A stretch of DNA of 64,000 nucleotides from NCBI GenBank assembly GCA_003225055.1, contig QIAU01000122.1, positions 1-64,000 on the forward strand, read 5' to 3'. The notes under the pieces were generated by a model. The model saw only the letters and a program-made list of their open reading frames with translations. It had not been told where the DNA came from and searched no databases. The position numbers were made by a program, and so were the translations under genes. The number at the start of each line of letters is the position of its first letter. The stretch's first letter is position 1. Origin of the DNA: Acidobacteriota bacterium (GTDB taxonomy: Bacteria > Acidobacteriota > Terriglobia > Terriglobales > Acidobacteriaceae). This document shows positions 5,057-47,776 of this stretch, one piece after another.

Positions 5057-6331
5057 TCATGCCTGCGGCAAAGCATACTGCGGCTCCGAAGCGACGACCC
5101 GCCGCACTTGGCGAACCATTGCCAAGATCAATAGGAACGCAGCCACGTGGAATGTACTCACTATTCCGAACACTGTCGACCATCCAAAACCATGGTCAAG
5201 AAGGTAGCCAACAACTAGATTGAAGACTACACCCCCGAGCGAACCCCCGAAGCCAACCAGACCAGCAACCGAACCGACATTGCGCCGTGGAAACAGGTCG
5301 ATTGGCAGAATCATGATCAGTGTCGACCAGGACTGCTGGCCAAAGAAGGCAATGCTGAAAATTACGAGGGCCCATCGCACGGCGGAATGGGGAACCAGCA
5401 GGATCAGCGGCATGACCGCCACACTGGCGCCCATGGCAGCCTTGCGAGCAAAATTCAGCGACTTGCCGCGGGACAACAGCCAGGCTGAAAGCCAGCCGCC
5501 GAACAGACACCCGACTCCGGCCGCAGCATAGGGAATCCACGCATAGTAGCCGACTTTCTTGGTATCAAAGCGGCGAACGTCGTAAAGATACTTGGGGAGC
5601 CAGAACAGGTAGAAATACCAGCCTGCATCGCTCAAGGACTTGGCGAGGACCAAGCCCCAGGACTCGACATAGGTCAGCAACCGAAACCAGGAGATCGGGC
5701 CTTCCTTGCTTTCAGTTGTGATGAACACGTCCTGGATCTCGAGGCGCTCATCGGAGCTGAGCTTGGGATGTCGTTCGGCAGGAAAGTAGGCACGCAACCA
5801 CCATACCGTCCAGGCAAGTCCGACCGTTCCCACAACGACGAACACCCAACGCCAGCCAGCGGCGCCGATGATGATCGCTATCGCGGGCGGCGCAGCAACC
5901 GCGCCCACTGCTGTACCCGCGTTGATGATGCCCATTGCCGTTGATCGTTCACGGATGGGAAACCACTCCGCAACGGCCTTGGTCGCCGCGGGAAATCCGC
6001 CCCCTTCGCCAATGCCCAAAAGCAGCCGCGAGACCACCAGCATGCCAAAACCGGTCGCCAGGCCGTGTGCCGCACACGCCAACGACCACCAAGCCATGAT
6101 GAGCGCGAATCCCCGGCGCGTGCCCAGAGCATCCAGCACGCGCCCGCCGCCCGCGTACATAATGGCGTAGGTCGCCAGGAAGGCTGCCTGTAGCTCTGAA
6201 AACTGAGTGTTGGAGATCGGAATATCCCGCTGAATGGCGGCGATGGCTACGGGTACCGTTTGCCGATCGAGATAGCTGATGGCAATGGCCGCGCCAGTTA
6301 GGGATGCGATTTTCCAGCGCAAACGCATCAC
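5057..6331 (-). CDS. MFS transporter, anion:cation symporter (hexuronate-type)
   Basis: A 424-residue inner-membrane carrier with twelve predicted helices. The N-terminal YLDRQTVPVAI, the loop DALGTRRGFAL, the GIGEGGGFPAATKAVAEWFP segment and ERSTAMGIINAGTAVGA are hallmarks of the ACS family of MFS (ExuT, GarP, GudP types) that import hexuronates and aldarates with protons. The start is GTG at 6331, or the ATG three bases further in at 6328; the first base of GTG is shared with the TAG of the regulator gene. Between a GntR regulator and two catabolic enzymes it most likely imports the acid sugar processed by this operon. Confidence 0.88.
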   Translation of the reverse strand: MMRLRWKIASLTGAAIAISYLDRQTVPVAIAAIQRDIPISNTQFSELQAAFLATYAIMYAGGGRVLDALGTRRGFALIMAWWSLACAAHGLATGFGMLVVSRLLLGIGEGGGFPAATKAVAEWFPIRERSTAMGIINAGTAVGAVAAPPAIAIIIGAAGWRWVFVVVGTVGLAWTVWWLRAYFPAERHPKLSSDERLEIQDVFITTESKEGPISWFRLLTYVESWGLVLAKSLSDAGWYFYLFWLPKYLYDVRRFDTKKVGYYAWIPYAAAGVGCLFGGWLSAWLLSRGKSLNFARKAAMGASVAVMPLILLVPHSAVRWALVIFSIAFFGQQSWSTLIMILPIDLFPRRNVGSVAGLVGFGGSLGGVVFNLVVGYLLDHGFGWSTVFGIVSTFHVAAFLLILAMVRQVRRVVASEPQYALPQA

Positions 6332-7113
6332 TAGTTCTGATGCTTCTTCTTCCGGTGCCGGGGTGGTCCCACCACCAACTCAGAGATGCGGTTTTCAAGA
6401 CGCGAGCTTTCCTGCTGTTGGTGAGCCCGCGAAAGCAGATCCCTCACATCGAGGAGGTGTTCGGTCATTCGTTTCCGCGCCTCGGCGGCATTTCCCTGCA
6501 CGATCGCGGTATAGATGCGTTGGTGAAAAGCCAGGGTGTGATGTACGGAGACCATCTGTGAAGTGAATTCAATCAACTTGTGAAAGGATTGGTGAACCAC
6601 GGTAAAAAGCATGCCGCACACCCGGCTGCCGGCGGCGTTGAAGATGATCTTGTGAAACTCCAGATCGTGCTGGCTGAGGAGGTCGTGGTTCTCGGCGTTC
6701 TGCTTCATCGCCTGCATTTCGTGGCGCAATGCGGTGCGCTCCCTGACCGAGGCACGACTCGCAGCCCGTGCCGCCAACTCCGGCTCCACTATGATTCGTG
6801 CCTCAATCAGTTCATCGAACGAAATACCGCTCAGCAGGATGAGGAACTCGAGTGGCTCGCACAACAGACTGCTGGTGCCGTCGTTGACGTAAGTCCCGTC
6901 TCCCACTCGCTGCGAGATAACGCCAATAATCTCCAGGACCTTCAGCGCTTGTCGAAGCGAGGAGCGGCTGACGTGAAACTTGTCCGCCAACTCACGTTCC
7001 GCGGGCAGGCGGCTTCCTGAGATCAGCGTTCCTTCCGAGAGCAGCCGCTTAAAAGTAGTCAGCAGCCGTACTGTGACGTCTTCCTTATAACTGGTTAGCG
7101 GCGTAGCTGCCAT
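6331..7113 (-). CDS. FadR-subfamily GntR transcriptional regulator
   Basis: A 260-residue regulator. The winged helix-turn-helix spans about residues 9-75 (LPAERELADKFHVSRSSLRQAL, then VGDGTYV), and the C-terminal FCD effector domain carries the histidine and aspartate metal or ligand residues (ARIIVEPELAARAA, HDLEFHKIIFNAAG, HHTLAFHQRIYTAI). Such proteins typically repress sugar-acid genes until a pathway acid binds. The frame is open up to 7281, but the ATG at 7113 is preceded by GGAGGTGG at a proper distance and starts the domain correctly. It is the first gene of the operon. Operator-like repeats before four transcription units of the locus are its likely sites, including a near match at 7159-7169 consistent with autoregulation. 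Confidence 0.88.
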   Translation of the reverse strand: MAATPLTSYKEDVTVRLLTTFKRLLSEGTLISGSRLPAERELADKFHVSRSSLRQALKVLEIIGVISQRVGDGTYVNDGTSSLLCEPLEFLILLSGISFDELIEARIIVEPELAARAASRASVRERTALRHEMQAMKQNAENHDLLSQHDLEFHKIIFNAAGSRVCGMLFTVVHQSFHKLIEFTSQMVSVHHTLAFHQRIYTAIVQGNAAEARKRMTEHLLDVRDLLSRAHQQQESSRLENRISELVVGPPRHRKKKHQN

Positions 7114-7158
7114 AACGTCGGTTCCACCTCCAATGTAAAGAGCGCCCCGAGTAGCTTT

Positions 7159-7169
7159 TGGTCCGACCG
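7159..7169. promoter_or_regulatory. Candidate autoregulatory operator of the GntR regulator
   Basis: TGGTCCGACCG differs by one base from TGGT-N3-ACCA and lies 46 bases upstream of the regulator's ATG. It is weaker than the sites at 1596, 1846 and 9576. Confidence 0.35.
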
Positions 7170-7235
7170 ACGCGCGACCCCCTTCTAAGGTAACGGAATT
7201 TAGCCTCTTCGCCCAATTCAATGTTCTTCTCGCCC

Positions 7236-9509
7236 CTAGTTGGCAGGCGACGCCGCGGTCAGCGGCGAACTCGGTGGCCATTGTCCAGAAGACGTCACTC
7301 GGAACTGTCCCTTCAGACGAATGTCGTCGGACGCGCTCCCCACCATAACGTCAAACGCCTCCGGTTCCATCACGAACGCTTTCTTGTTCGTGTCCCAAAA
7401 AGACAGCCGCTCCACCGAAAGCGAGAAGGTCACGGTTTTTTTCTCGCCCGGCTTGAGCGTGATGCGTTCGAATCCCGCCAGCTGCTCCCGTGGCCTTTTC
7501 ACCGTGGGCGAAACCTCGTGCACGTAGAGCTGCACTACCTCGTCGCCAGCCCGCCTGCCGCTGTTCTCCACGTCCGCCTTGATGGTGATCTGGCCATTTC
7601 CCGGCACCTGCTCGGAGGAAAGGCGTAGGTTGCTGTACGAGAAGGTGGTGTAACTCAGGCCGTGCCCGAAGGCGTATTGCGGTTTGCCATCGAAATACAT
7701 GTACGTGAAGCCTTTGGTGATGTCGTATTCGGTCATCGGCGGTATGTCGCGAACTGACCGGTACACGGTGTAAGGAAGCTTTGCTCCGGGGCTGTAATCG
7801 CCAAACAGCACATCGGCGATGGCATTCCCGCCTTCCTCCCCTGCCCAGAACATATCGACAACTGCGGGAGCGTCGAGGTCCTGCGACCCCTGCCCCCCAC
7901 CGAAACCGGCAACCAGTGATACCGGACCGCCGTTGAGAAGAACAATTACCGTTTTCGGATTGGCTTCCAATACCCTTCGCGCCAGCTGCATTTGTACTGG
8001 AGGCAGGTTCAGATATTCCCGGTCAATCCCTTCCCGCTCCAGCATCTGATTGATGCCGACAAACAGGATGGCCACGTCCGCCTTTTTAGCAGCGCTTTCA
8101 GCTTCGGCATAACTGGCCTCCGGGTTGTCAGATTCGAGAATTCCACTGCCGCGCGCGTACAACACCTTAGTTTCTGGTCCTACCTTGTTCTTCACGCCCT
8201 CCAGCGGTTTAACGAACCTGGAATACATGCCCGTATAGTTAGGACCGATCTGAGCCATATCTGCAAACGGACCGATCACGGCTATGGTTTTGAGTTTGCT
8301 CTTGTCCAGGGGCAGGGAATTGTCCTTATTGGTCAGCAGCACGATGGATTCTTCGGCCATGCGGAAGGCGAGTTGGCGGTGTTGCTCGGAATCGATTACT
8401 TCGGGACCGATCTTGCTGTACGGAACCATCGATGGTGGATCAAACTCGCCCAGGCGAAAGCGTACCGTCAATACTCGGCGGAGCGCCTGATCGACATCCT
8501 TTTCCGTCAGGAACCCCTCCGCGAGCGCCTTTGGCAAAACGCGAGCATAGGCACCGTTGTCGAGATCGCTGCCGGCAAGAATGGTTTTGGCGGCGGCTTC
8601 TTCCAGGGTTTTATATCTCCGCTGGGCGGTCACCAGATTTTCCACGGCGCCGCTGTCCGGAACTACGAACCCGTCGAACTTCCACTCATCGCGGAGGACT
8701 TCCTTCAGCAGAAACGGGTTCTCCGCGTTTGGGATCCCGTTGATCCCGTTGTACGACGACATAATGGACTGCGCATGCCCTTCCATGATTCCAGCCTTGA
8801 ACTGCGGCAGAAAGTACTCCCGCAGGCTGCGCTCATCCACCTCCATGATGGAGCTCACGCGGTCTCGCTCCTGGTTGTTCACGGCAAAATGCTTGAGAGT
8901 AGCAGCCAGCTTCAAATATCTGGGGTCATCGCCCTGGGTTCCTTTCACGTATGCGACCGTTATCCGGGCGGCGAGTAGCGGATCCTCGCCAAACGCTTCC
9001 CATATCCTGCCCCAGCGCGGATCGCGGTCCATGTTGACGACGGGGGAGCGGTACACCAAGCCGTTATGACGAAATCGTTCTCCATTCGCGGTGACCGTGA
9101 CCGCTTGTCCCTGCCCACCTGTCGCCTCCACTTTGCCGGGAACAGTGGGCCAGTAGTTGTAGATTGCCCGGCCCTCGTCCGCTATGGCGCCTGCGACCTC
9201 CTGCACCAATTCCGGATTCCATGTGACAGCCATGCTAATAGGCACGGGAAACATCGTTGTGGGCCGGGTCCAGACGATTCCATGAAGGCTCTGGTTCCAG
9301 CCATTCATCGCCGGTATCTTCAGTCGGTCGATGGCCGGCGCTGTTGTGCTGAGAAGCGAAGTCTTTTCTTCCAGCGTCAGCCGTGCGATCAAATCATCCA
9401 CTCGCCTGGCGATGGGTTGAGAGGGATCGAGGTAAACAGGTTGTTGAGCGATTGCAGCCAGCGGAATTGCAAGAAAGAGTGCCAAGATACCGGCCTTCAG
9501 TTTCTTCAT
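7236..9509 (-). CDS. Secreted glycoside hydrolase family 3 enzyme
   Basis: A 757-residue GH3 protein with signal peptide 1-21 (cleaved after AIA). The (beta/alpha)8 domain covers about 30-330 with MDRDPRWGRIWEAFGEDPLL, LKHFAVNNQERDR and the nucleophile D285 in GFVVPDSGAV. The alpha/beta sandwich domain follows (about 385-620), and a fibronectin-III-like domain ends the protein (GRRAGDEVVQLYVHEV, LAGFERITLKPGEKK). GH3 enzymes cut single sugars from beta-linked oligosaccharides; glucosidase or xylosidase cannot be separated from sequence alone. The motif around the nucleophile is usually VSDWGA or VSDCGA, so VPDSGA is unusual. A TGGT-N3-ACCA repeat at 9576 puts it under the same presumed control as the sugar-acid genes. 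Confidence 0.9.
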   Translation of the reverse strand: MKKLKAGILALFLAIPLAAIAQQPVYLDPSQPIARRVDDLIARLTLEEKTSLLSTTAPAIDRLKIPAMNGWNQSLHGIVWTRPTTMFPVPISMAVTWNPELVQEVAGAIADEGRAIYNYWPTVPGKVEATGGQGQAVTVTANGERFRHNGLVYRSPVVNMDRDPRWGRIWEAFGEDPLLAARITVAYVKGTQGDDPRYLKLAATLKHFAVNNQERDRVSSIMEVDERSLREYFLPQFKAGIMEGHAQSIMSSYNGINGIPNAENPFLLKEVLRDEWKFDGFVVPDSGAVENLVTAQRRYKTLEEAAAKTILAGSDLDNGAYARVLPKALAEGFLTEKDVDQALRRVLTVRFRLGEFDPPSMVPYSKIGPEVIDSEQHRQLAFRMAEESIVLLTNKDNSLPLDKSKLKTIAVIGPFADMAQIGPNYTGMYSRFVKPLEGVKNKVGPETKVLYARGSGILESDNPEASYAEAESAAKKADVAILFVGINQMLEREGIDREYLNLPPVQMQLARRVLEANPKTVIVLLNGGPVSLVAGFGGGQGSQDLDAPAVVDMFWAGEEGGNAIADVLFGDYSPGAKLPYTVYRSVRDIPPMTEYDITKGFTYMYFDGKPQYAFGHGLSYTTFSYSNLRLSSEQVPGNGQITIKADVENSGRRAGDEVVQLYVHEVSPTVKRPREQLAGFERITLKPGEKKTVTFSLSVERLSFWDTNKKAFVMEPEAFDVMVGSASDDIRLKGQFRVTSSGQWPPSSPLTAASPAN

Positions 9510-9575
9510 GCTTCTGCTCCCCGGCGGGAATGACGGCTACTGCCCTGCGTACGGCAAGCCAGTTCTAAAAAAAAT

Positions 9576-9586
9576 TGGTTCTACCA
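9576..9586. promoter_or_regulatory. Candidate GntR/FadR operator before the GH3 gene
   Basis: TGGTTCTACCA lies 67 bases upstream of the ATG at 9509. It has the same TGGT-N3-ACCA core as the sites before the TonB receptor and the dehydratase. Confidence 0.5.
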
Positions 9587-10020
9587 TTCGCAGCCATCTC
9601 ATGTCAAACAAATCGCCAGCGAGTCGCATCTGAAGCGGCTGCTCTCTTCATTATGTCGGGTATTACCCACCAGGATCGCACCCACTGCGGACTTCAGAAG
9701 CAGACCCCGAAAAAAAGCGCTGCTCAGGACAGGGGAAGGTGGTAGCGTGGCCTCGTGTCGGTGGTCTTCATCGTCGTTACGACCGTGCGGCCTGAATTTG
9801 GCGCCACCCTAGTTTTCTGCCGGCCGATCAGTTCATCGATGGGCACGCTATCTGTTGCTGCCTGCCATGCAGTCCTAGCCGTGGTGTGATTGGGTTTCGA
9901 CTTGGATCCTTGAGGGAGCAATCGCCGGGCCGACCGACCTGTTATTGGTGTGAATAACGTGTGCGATAGCAGGTATAGAGTTGTGGCGAAGGACAACACC
10001 GCGCACCCTATTCTAGCGTA
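9587..10020. other. No recognisable gene
   Basis: About 430 bases downstream of the operator region. A minus-strand open frame of 91 codons (9724-9999) has no recognisable motif, no ribosome site and an odd composition. I see nothing supportable here. Confidence 0.5.
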
Positions 10021-42671: not shown

Positions 42672-44822
<2,151 letters not shown>

Positions 44823-44956
44823 AAAACGGCCGAGCCAACAAGACAGATGCTAACAAAGTAGGTCAGACGTCGTGACCCAAGCACTAATCTGTACCTTGCT
44901 CAAAATTGCGTGTGGTCCGGAGCGCACCAGAGCACGCTGGATTCTATATAAACGAA

Positions 44957-44974
44957 TGTGAACAACAGGTTAAA
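44957..44974. promoter_or_regulatory. Weak Pho-box-like repeat upstream of ppk1
   Basis: On the minus strand the bases read TTTAACC-TGTT-GTTCACA, with 7-4-7 spacing; the first half matches the sites at 39603 and 47932, the second only partly. It is 135-152 bases upstream of the ppk1 start. Confidence 0.25.
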
Positions 44975-45021
44975 ATCCTCCCCGGATTGTCGGGTTCCTG
45001 GCATGCCAAGTCGGTGAACGC

Positions 45022-45050
45022 AAAAAGGCGGGGAATCTTCGTTCCCCGCC
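45022..45050 (-). terminator. Rho-independent terminator on the minus strand, separated from its gene
   Basis: GGCGGGGAA and TTCCCCGCC form a perfect 9-base stem with a six-base loop. Read on the minus strand the hairpin is followed by TTTTT, the standard terminator. No minus-strand gene ends near it now; the nearest is the phosphodiesterase gene ending at 46175, with the IS630 element between. Removing the IS puts the stem about 60 bases after that stop codon. Confidence 0.75.
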
Positions 45051-45090
45051 TGCTGTGACTTCCGGGAACGCTTCTATTGCGAATTGAATA

Positions 45091-46153
45091 ATATAGTGAC
45101 ATTTCTGGATCTATGCTATGGTCTGGGCATGGGAAATCCAGCAGGAGTGCGGCGAGATTTCGAGAAGTTAGAGCAGCGTCGCCTGGAGGCGGCCGATCTG
45201 TTACGCCAGGGCGTCCACCAGGCGGAAGTGGCCCGCCGGGTTGGAGTGCATCGGCAGTCGGTGGGCCGTTGGGCGGAGGAACTCAAGCGGGGTGGAAGGC
45301 GGGCGCTGCGGAAGGCCGGACGCGCCGGTCGCCCGCCGCGTTTGCGTCCCGAGGATCTGCGGCGCATCGAGAAAGGGCTGAAGCGCGGACCGGAGGGGCT
45401 GGGCTATGAGACCGGCCTGTGGACGTCGTGGCGGGTTGCCCATCTGATTGAGCAGGAATGTGGGGTGAAGTATCACCCGTCGCAGGCTTGGCGCATTCTG
45501 CGGCAGTTGGGCTGGAGCTGCCAGCGTCCGGTGGAACGCGCCTGGGAGCGGGAAGAGGAGAAGATCCGGCGGGGGAAGCAGAAGCGCTGGCCGGAGATTA
45601 AAAAAAAGCCCAAAAAGAGGGCCGAACGATCGTCTTCATCGACGAAAGCGGACTGAGCGAGCGGCCCACCGCTGCCGGACCGGGGCGCCGAGGGGGCAGA
45701 CGCCGGTGCTGCAACACCCCTTCAACTGGAAGACGCTGTCGGCGATTGGCGGGGGTGACGTGGTGGAACTTCTCCTTCCGGCTGTTTCCCGGCGTGATCA
45801 GGCAGCCCGCAGATCATCCTGTTCCTCTCGCACCTGATGCGGCACATCCCCGGCAAGCTGCTGATGATCTGGGACGGGCTGCCGGCCACCACAGCTGCGC
45901 GGTGTGGGGAGTTCGTCCGGCAGCAGCGAGGGCGCCTGTGGGTGGAGTTTCTTCCCGGCTATGCGCCGGAACTGAATCCCGTCGAGTACCTGTGGTCACA
46001 CTGGAAGCAGCGCGAACTGCCCAACTTCCACCCCACCAGCTTCGGGCCGTTGAGCCATTACGCGCTCGCAAGGCCCTGCGCCGGATGCGCCGCCGGCCTA
46101 CTCTGGTTTGCGCCTTCCGGAAACAGGCGGAGTTGTTTCTTTTGTAACTATAT
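45091..46153 (+). mobile_element. IS630-family insertion sequence (decayed)
   Basis: About 1063 bases flanked by TA on both sides (45089-45090 and 46154-46155), the IS630/Tc1-mariner target. Terminal inverted repeats: the left end begins ATATAGTGACA and the right end, read inward, ATATAGTTACA; the match even extends outward through TA into TTG(A/C)A. It contains a transposase gene split by several frameshifts. The element lies between a phosphatase gene and that gene's terminator, so it arrived after the phosphatase gene was in place. Confidence 0.8.
45129..46147 (+). pseudogene. IS630-family transposase, frameshifted
   Basis: The first frame (45129-45656) encodes the helix-turn-helix part (LLRQGVHQAEVARRVGVHRQSVGRWAEEL) and the winged-helix part with YHPSQAWRILRQLGWSCQRP. 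A run of eight adenines near 45600 precedes a -1 change into the frame with IVFIDESGLSERPT, the first catalytic D of the DDE domain; a slip on such a run is programmed in many IS630 elements. Beyond it, further changes are needed: GQTPVLQHPFNWKTLSAIGG, then FRLFPGVI, then ILFLSHLMRHIPGKLLMIWD (second D), then FLPGYAPELNPVEYLWSHWK (catalytic E), then ALRRMRRRPTLVCAFRKQAE. Those extra shifts mean no active transposase is made. Confidence 0.75.
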
Positions 46154-46174
46154 TATGCAACATTCAATGAGTCT

Positions 46175-47776
46175 TCAAAAAGGAAGCCCGGGAAGTTCCT
46201 CCGTGTTTTCCTGCCGTACCGCCTTTAACTGCTTAGGATCGATTCCCAGGGCGTGCAAAAGCGTCGGCGCGACCTGCGAAGTTGCTACCGGAGTCTTAAG
46301 CAGCCGGGCCGGAAAAGCAGGGTTCGAAACGATCAGGCCGACGTTAGTATCCCCGAAGCTGAACCCGCCGTGCTCGGCGTTTTTCTTGGTCGACCCCGTG
46401 TAGATGGTACCGTAGGCGGGCTGGACAATGATGTCCGGAGTACGATTATCTGTGAGTGGGTTATTGAATCGAAGCTCGAGTTCTGCCCCGGCCAATACTT
46501 CTTCAACAAAGAGCGGCCCGGCATTGGCGTTCAAGTAGGCGGCAACTGCCGCCGTCTGGCTCTGGTCTTGCAGCCAGATCAGGGCGACGTCGTCGTCTTG
46601 AACCAAGCCGCAGGCTCCGGTGCTGCAATTGTTAGCATTGGCTATGGCTATGGCAGCGGGATTTGTGCCTGCATCCGGCAGGGCAGCAACCAGATCCGCA
46701 AAATGACCGGGCTTGTTGACCTTCACCGGATTGATGGGCGACTGGCCGTGTTTCGCGCTGACAATGAATAAGGTCGAGTCATAGGCATCCTGCTCTTTAA
46801 GCGCCTGGATCATTTTGCCCAGCGACTCGTCGGTCTTCTCGAGCCCGAAGGCGAGCACGTCGCTCGGGGTTCCGGACCCGTCCTTGTAACCGCCCGGCTG
46901 GCCATTCAAGGTTGGATCGGTGTCTGTGGAGCAGCTACCATCCTTATTGTCAATCGCCAGCTTCTGCCCTACACTCACCGCCTGGAAGTTCATTCCAAAA
47001 ACTGTGGGCACGCCAGGTCCCGCCGATCCGTCATGCCGCAGGCCGTGAATCTGGTTGATGATCGCCTGGACCTTTTTCTGATCGTTCGCAGCGGTACAAA
47101 CCACGCTGCCAGTCGCATCAAATCCGTTGAAATTCGTAAGCTCCGGCGTGTACAGGTCTTCCACACCCGTGCCGGAAGGGCCATTTACTAGATCATAGGC
47201 AGGATGTTTGTCCGCCCACGCGGTGTGCCCGCCTGCGGCACGGACCACTTCGAAGATGGTGTTGGTCTCCAGTGCACTGTGCGGATACAAAGGCACGCAC
47301 TTACCCCTCACCAGACGCCGCGGCAGTTTGGTGGGATCGAGCACATTCAGCGAGACGTTGTTTGCCTGGTACAGGTCGATGCTTTCGTCAAAGACCATCC
47401 TGTTGCCGGCAGTGCCCACGCACAGGGCGTTCGTGGGGTCGAAAAGAGTGCGGTCATAACTGACGTCATAGAAAAGTCCGGTGCTGATGGGCGAGCCACC
47501 AGTCACGAGTGCCAGAAGACCCGGGAAAGAATCCGAATTCCCGGGTGTGTATGCATTGGAGAAGGTAACTCCGTGACGGGACAGTTCGGCTAAAGCCGAG
47601 CCAGGATGAGCTTCAATGTAGCGCGCAATGTCAAGCGCATGCAGGCCGTCCACGCTGATCAGAAGAACGTGTTGGATGGTTGGCCGGGAGTTCTGCGCCG
47701 TTGCTATGCAAGCAGACAGTTGAACAAACAACCCCAGCAACATCAGCTTAGTTAGGGGAGAGAAATGATTCAGCAC
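46175..47776 (-). CDS. Secreted alkaline-phosphatase-superfamily phosphodiesterase/phosphatase
   Basis: A 533-residue protein with signal peptide 1-27 (CIATAQ). The domain is of the type I phosphodiesterase/nucleotide pyrophosphatase class: metal aspartate in VLLISVDGLHALDIARY (about 42), nucleophile in YTPGNSDSFPGLLALVTGG (likely a serine near 82), then TIFEVVRAAGGHTAWADKHPAYD, FIVSAKHGQSPINP and EHGGFSFGDTNVGLIVSNP for the metal histidines. It likely releases phosphate outside the cytoplasm. The start is GTG at 47776 with GAGGAGG 8 bases before it. It shares its upstream region, including a Pho-box-like repeat, with the divergent response regulator. Its terminator is now beyond an IS element. 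Confidence 0.82.
   Translation of the reverse strand: MLNHFSPLTKLMLLGLFVQLSACIATAQNSRPTIQHVLLISVDGLHALDIARYIEAHPGSALAELSRHGVTFSNAYTPGNSDSFPGLLALVTGGSPISTGLFYDVSYDRTLFDPTNALCVGTAGNRMVFDESIDLYQANNVSLNVLDPTKLPRRLVRGKCVPLYPHSALETNTIFEVVRAAGGHTAWADKHPAYDLVNGPSGTGVEDLYTPELTNFNGFDATGSVVCTAANDQKKVQAIINQIHGLRHDGSAGPGVPTVFGMNFQAVSVGQKLAIDNKDGSCSTDTDPTLNGQPGGYKDGSGTPSDVLAFGLEKTDESLGKMIQALKEQDAYDSTLFIVSAKHGQSPINPVKVNKPGHFADLVAALPDAGTNPAAIAIANANNCSTGACGLVQDDDVALIWLQDQSQTAAVAAYLNANAGPLFVEEVLAGAELELRFNNPLTDNRTPDIIVQPAYGTIYTGSTKKNAEHGGFSFGDTNVGLIVSNPAFPARLLKTPVATSQVAPTLLHALGIDPKQLKAVRQENTEELPGLPF

Follow-up and report, generated by a model that had tools for sequence, protein, structure and literature searches.

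Insertion of an IS630-family element between a phosphatase-like gene and its probable former terminator in an Acidobacteriota genome

The window, a stretch of 64,000 nucleotides from an Acidobacteriota contig, carries two genes on its minus strand that are separated by an insertion sequence and a hairpin. The first, at 46175-47776, encodes a secreted-type phosphodiesterase/phosphatase of 533 amino acids, which matches the phosphodiesterase/nucleotide pyrophosphatase family PF01663 of the alkaline-phosphatase superfamily. None of the NCBIfam models matched it at cut-off, and "phosphatase" seems a fair label for its product. It is followed downstream, on the same strand, by the polyphosphate kinase gene ppk1 (42672-44822). 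Between the two lie a decayed IS630-family element on the plus strand (45077-46167) and, on the minus strand, a hairpin with a T run (45022-45051) that reads as the phosphatase gene's own intrinsic terminator, moved away from it. The phosphatase itself has a natural C-terminus, ending in LPGLPF where an orthologue ends in LPGLPY, and this match to its orthologues indicates that the protein was left unchanged by the element. Four orthologues at 69-73% identity (L064, L065, L057, and L069) come from records with Bradyrhizobium, Gallionella, and Methylococcaceae in their titles, suggesting either horizontal transfer or misbinned contigs.

The borders of the element were fixed by alignment with 11 other loci, which share a left TA followed by TTG and a right CAA followed by TA. 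The element spans 1091 bp between target duplications. On the left, the TA at 45075-45076 is present in all nine aligned left ends; on the right, the window has TG at 46168-46169 where the seven other right ends all have TA (seven of eight with the window's own TG counted). A single transition suffices to explain this TG, which is probably a decayed TA. Terminal inverted repeats of 18 nt, 89% complementary, form a core at 45084-45101 and 46143-46160, and the similarity between them runs outward from this core to the borders. The original prediction had taken the inner TAs (45089 and 46154) for the borders; these belong to the inverted repeat, and the other copies reach 14 nt further on each side. 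The end of the phosphatase gene at 46175 had been placed correctly, but its distance from the element is 5 nt, counted from the right TG to the stop codon, and not 20 bases from a right TA. With 45060-46180 as the query, copies were found in 16 of the 199 other genomes of the order that were searched, four of them near full length at 77-80% identity (two in one genome, one in each of two more). In the window's own genome, a second, partial copy matches the left end with 97% identity over 350 bp and is truncated on the right side.

A profile search and comparison with the other copies divide the transposase into two plus-strand halves: orfA, with the helix-turn-helix (45129-45656), and orfB, with the DDE domain (45608-46146). 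The two occupy different frames and join at a run of eight A residues (45600-45607), which is a probable slippage site judged by its position and conservation: in the comparison, which covered seven of the 12 loci, the A8 is shared by the window and the four near-full copies, L034 has A9, and L003 does not have an A6. In a copy with 79% nucleotide identity (L047), both reading frames pass the IS630-type transposase model NF033545 (scores of 104.2 and 111.7 against a cut-off of 100) and the DDE_3 catalytic domain is matched; the window's orfA stays below that cut-off at 93.3, while its broken orfB piece still matches DDE_3 at 2.5e-11. Since the DDE half carries six small indels relative to the four near-full copies, the element at 45077-46167 is a dead copy, and its insertion is not very recent.

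The hairpin lies just beyond the left end of the element. On the minus strand, its arms (45051-45042 and 45035-45026) form a stem of 10 pairs, 7 of them G-C, with no mismatch and a loop of 6 nt, and a run of five T residues follows directly and ends at 45022. The perfect hairpin with TTTTT that had been described at 45022-45050 is thus present, with its stem starting one base further out, at 45051. It looks like a strong intrinsic terminator: folding of 45051-45026 alone gives -19.2 kcal/mol, and the 61 nt around it have a folding z of -3.1, with 1 of 200 shuffles equally stable. Nowhere else in the 64 kb does a minus-strand site score at least 20, and the plus strand has one such site. A scan of 43-48 kb with a looser consensus returned seven terminator-like sites, where shuffled sequence gave 4.9 (sd 2.4); the number of sites is therefore unremarkable and only the quality of the one at 45022-45051 is unusual.

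A G+C-rich hairpin of this kind, with its T run, is found downstream of a gene on the same strand, but that gene ends 1.1 kb upstream because the element lies in between. The statement that no gene ends near the hairpin holds in this respect; it needs qualifying for a mechanical minus-strand reading frame of 83 amino acids (45367-45116), which ends 65 nt from the hairpin, although it lies within the element and opposite the transposase. As an owner of the hairpin this antisense frame was rejected, as it is broken by stops in three of the five other copies compared. That the hairpin is a terminator of the element itself, or of some other mobile repeat, might be supposed from its position only 26 nt outside the border; yet its inverted repeat occurs in a single place in the genome of 7,411,304 bases, which excludes a mobile palindrome, and no such hairpin stands beside the other copies, for which 15 flanks of 11 copies contained a terminator-like site in two cases, both weak. 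We regard this origin as the least probable of all those considered. From the same small sample, there is no sign that the element targets terminators.

The hairpin could alternatively belong to the gene ahead of it, as an attenuator in the ppk leader, some 200 nt before the ppk start, a reading with which both its position and its strand are compatible. Attenuators of this kind are, however, hardly visible in the relatives of ppk. From 29 rows of matches listed, 18 loci were scanned, the window's own included, and among the other 17 the 500 nt upstream of ppk held a terminator-like site of any score in seven and one scoring at least 20 in a single relative (at -126), and in none of the 17 does a site come closer than 40 nt to that of the window at -228. 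Nothing in 44600-46400 matched Rfam up to E = 1, and a leader promoter lying outside the element would not fit into the roughly 25 nt between it and the hairpin. Taken together, these results make an attenuator very improbable, and only marginally less so than a terminator of mobile origin. As the hairpin stands between the element and ppk, any transcription on the minus strand that gets this far should still be halted ahead of ppk.

Orthologues of the phosphatase gene offer a direct comparison for what follows its stop codon. The 57 loci collected were divided into a main set of 25 (55-78% identity, with the match reaching at least residue 529), a distant set of 22 (35-49%), and 10 that were dropped because the match fell short of the C-terminus. 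In the 100 nt scanned past the stop, 16 of the 25 main-set orthologues have an intrinsic terminator starting at 22-57 nt, and in 15 the score is at least 20; the remaining nine have no intrinsic terminator in this interval. By comparison, 2000 segments drawn at random from the same loci contained any terminator in 3.6% and one scoring at least 20 in 0.4%, and 1000 shuffles did so in 5.5% and 0.2%, respectively. Further orthologues, most of which repeat members of the 25, carry a terminator in seven of nine cases. The trait appears to belong to the close group, as 21 of the 22 distant relatives lack a terminator scoring at least 20, with one such site in the set and one other, weak site at a score of 15. 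Comparison of the locus DNA shows that the window's IS630 element is absent from the DNA available for all 25 main-set loci. When the window is rebuilt without the element, the hairpin begins 30 nt past the stop, in the middle of the range of the orthologues and half the distance of about 60 bases first proposed. The hairpin sequences differ between the window and the orthologues; three of the latter (L058, L062, and L066) have an arm with GCGGGGA or CGGGGA in common with the window's. The original prediction would have been refuted by relatives that lack both the element and a hairpin after the gene; the 16 loci with a terminator uphold it, with the nine others lacking one and the hairpins differing in sequence.

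These observations are best explained by insertion of an IS630-family element between the phosphatase gene and its own terminator, which would have displaced the terminator to about 1.1 kb from the stop codon, a reading to which we give a probability of about 0.85 and which upholds what had been proposed from the window alone. Originally, the gene at 46175-47776 would have been ended by an intrinsic terminator 30 nt past its stop; the element would then have entered a TA in this 30-nt gap in the orientation opposite to the gene, shifting the terminator to its present distance while leaving both it and the coding sequence untouched. That the hairpin once belonged to this gene, that the site was once empty, and how the RNA is affected are inferences from the arrangement of the window and from its orthologues. 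No allele of this locus that lacks the element turned up: a genome of the same genus has no match to the gene or to 44500-45076, none of the orthologue loci whose flanks were examined has ppk adjoining the gene, and 44823-45074 showed no convincing similarity to these loci, with two matches of 13-16 nt at E = 4.1. With no IS-free relative that has the same locus, a rearrangement has to be weighed as a rival, in which the two flanks of the element were never neighbors and a deletion or rearrangement at the element joined the gene to the terminator of another gene. It would account for the right duplication being TG and not TA and for the lack of any relative with the gene beside this hairpin or ppk, and it would suit a gene that may move between genomes, given its relatives in other phyla by record title. 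The TG, however, is accounted for by one transition, the other features of the borders are those of a complete element, and the hairpin has the correct strand and a 30-nt spacing that falls within the range of the orthologues, so that we consider a rearrangement unlikely, although clearly less so than either alternative origin of the hairpin discussed above.

If the element did enter between gene and terminator, the RNA of the phosphatase gene is now probably extended at its 3′ end, running antisense across the element to the old terminator or ending earlier within it. The antisense passage of the phosphatase transcript through the transposase, which had been put forward as a fact, is plausible and would follow if RNA polymerase continued beyond the stop codon. 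An early stop could be brought about by Rho or by a weak hairpin that the minus strand forms at 45623-45607, where the complement of the slippage site provides a T8 (45623-45600 in all, -8.3 kcal/mol for 27 nt). When the minus strand of the element is divided into 11 bins of 100 nt, 8 have an excess of C over G, which would suit Rho. The weak hairpin was rejected as a conserved terminator: its stem ranges from -2.1 to -6.2 kcal/mol in six copies, and in L034 it does not adjoin the T run, which together mark it as weak and variable. A more general idea, that the antisense of the slippage site (an A8 beside a GC-rich arm) acts as a hairpin with a T8 at which host transcription coming into the element from behind is stopped, and that the element thus gives the gene it cuts off a replacement terminator, is speculative and, in our view, improbable. 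In the other direction, transposase transcripts on the plus strand point toward the 3′ end of the phosphatase gene, and near the right end of the element that strand has a single terminator-like site, a weak one (46115-46132).

In its TA duplication, terminal inverted repeats, length of about 1.1 kb, NF033545 and DDE_3 matches in a close copy, and two reading frames joined at an A8, the element resembles the two-ORF frameshift members of the IS630 (IS630/Tc1/mariner) family, from which the window's copy differs by its decayed orfB, its right TG, and an orfA that scores below cut-off. The A8 fits the slippage known for this family, for which a review (PMC5009743) describes the use of frameshifting, with transcriptional realignment in a Roseiflexus IS630. 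The effects of insertion sequences beside genes on terminators, promoters, and neighboring transcription are discussed in PMC9208149, which counts IS630 among the families over-represented between convergent genes. Like the pairs described there, the present case involves an element inserted at the 3′ side of a gene; it differs in that the element faces the upstream gene and occupies precisely the gap from stop codon to terminator, an arrangement that the passages on such pairs do not describe and of which a non-exhaustive literature search returned no description. The insertion that splits the gene from its terminator adds one more example to a known, ordinary kind of event, and it would offer a clean natural case in which an insertion sequence changes nothing of a gene but the 3′ end of its RNA, with protein and terminator intact. 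The terminators of the orthologues can be used to recognize such events, and exact borders are now available for this IS630 group.

The phosphatase gene has been interrupted elsewhere: in another genome of the family (L028, about 5389-9732), an orthologue is broken close to its C-terminus by some 4.3 kb whose two ends, each of about 20 nt, are near-perfect inverted copies of one another, and, among the reading frames in this interruption, we take one, by eye, to resemble an IS transposase and another a sigma factor.
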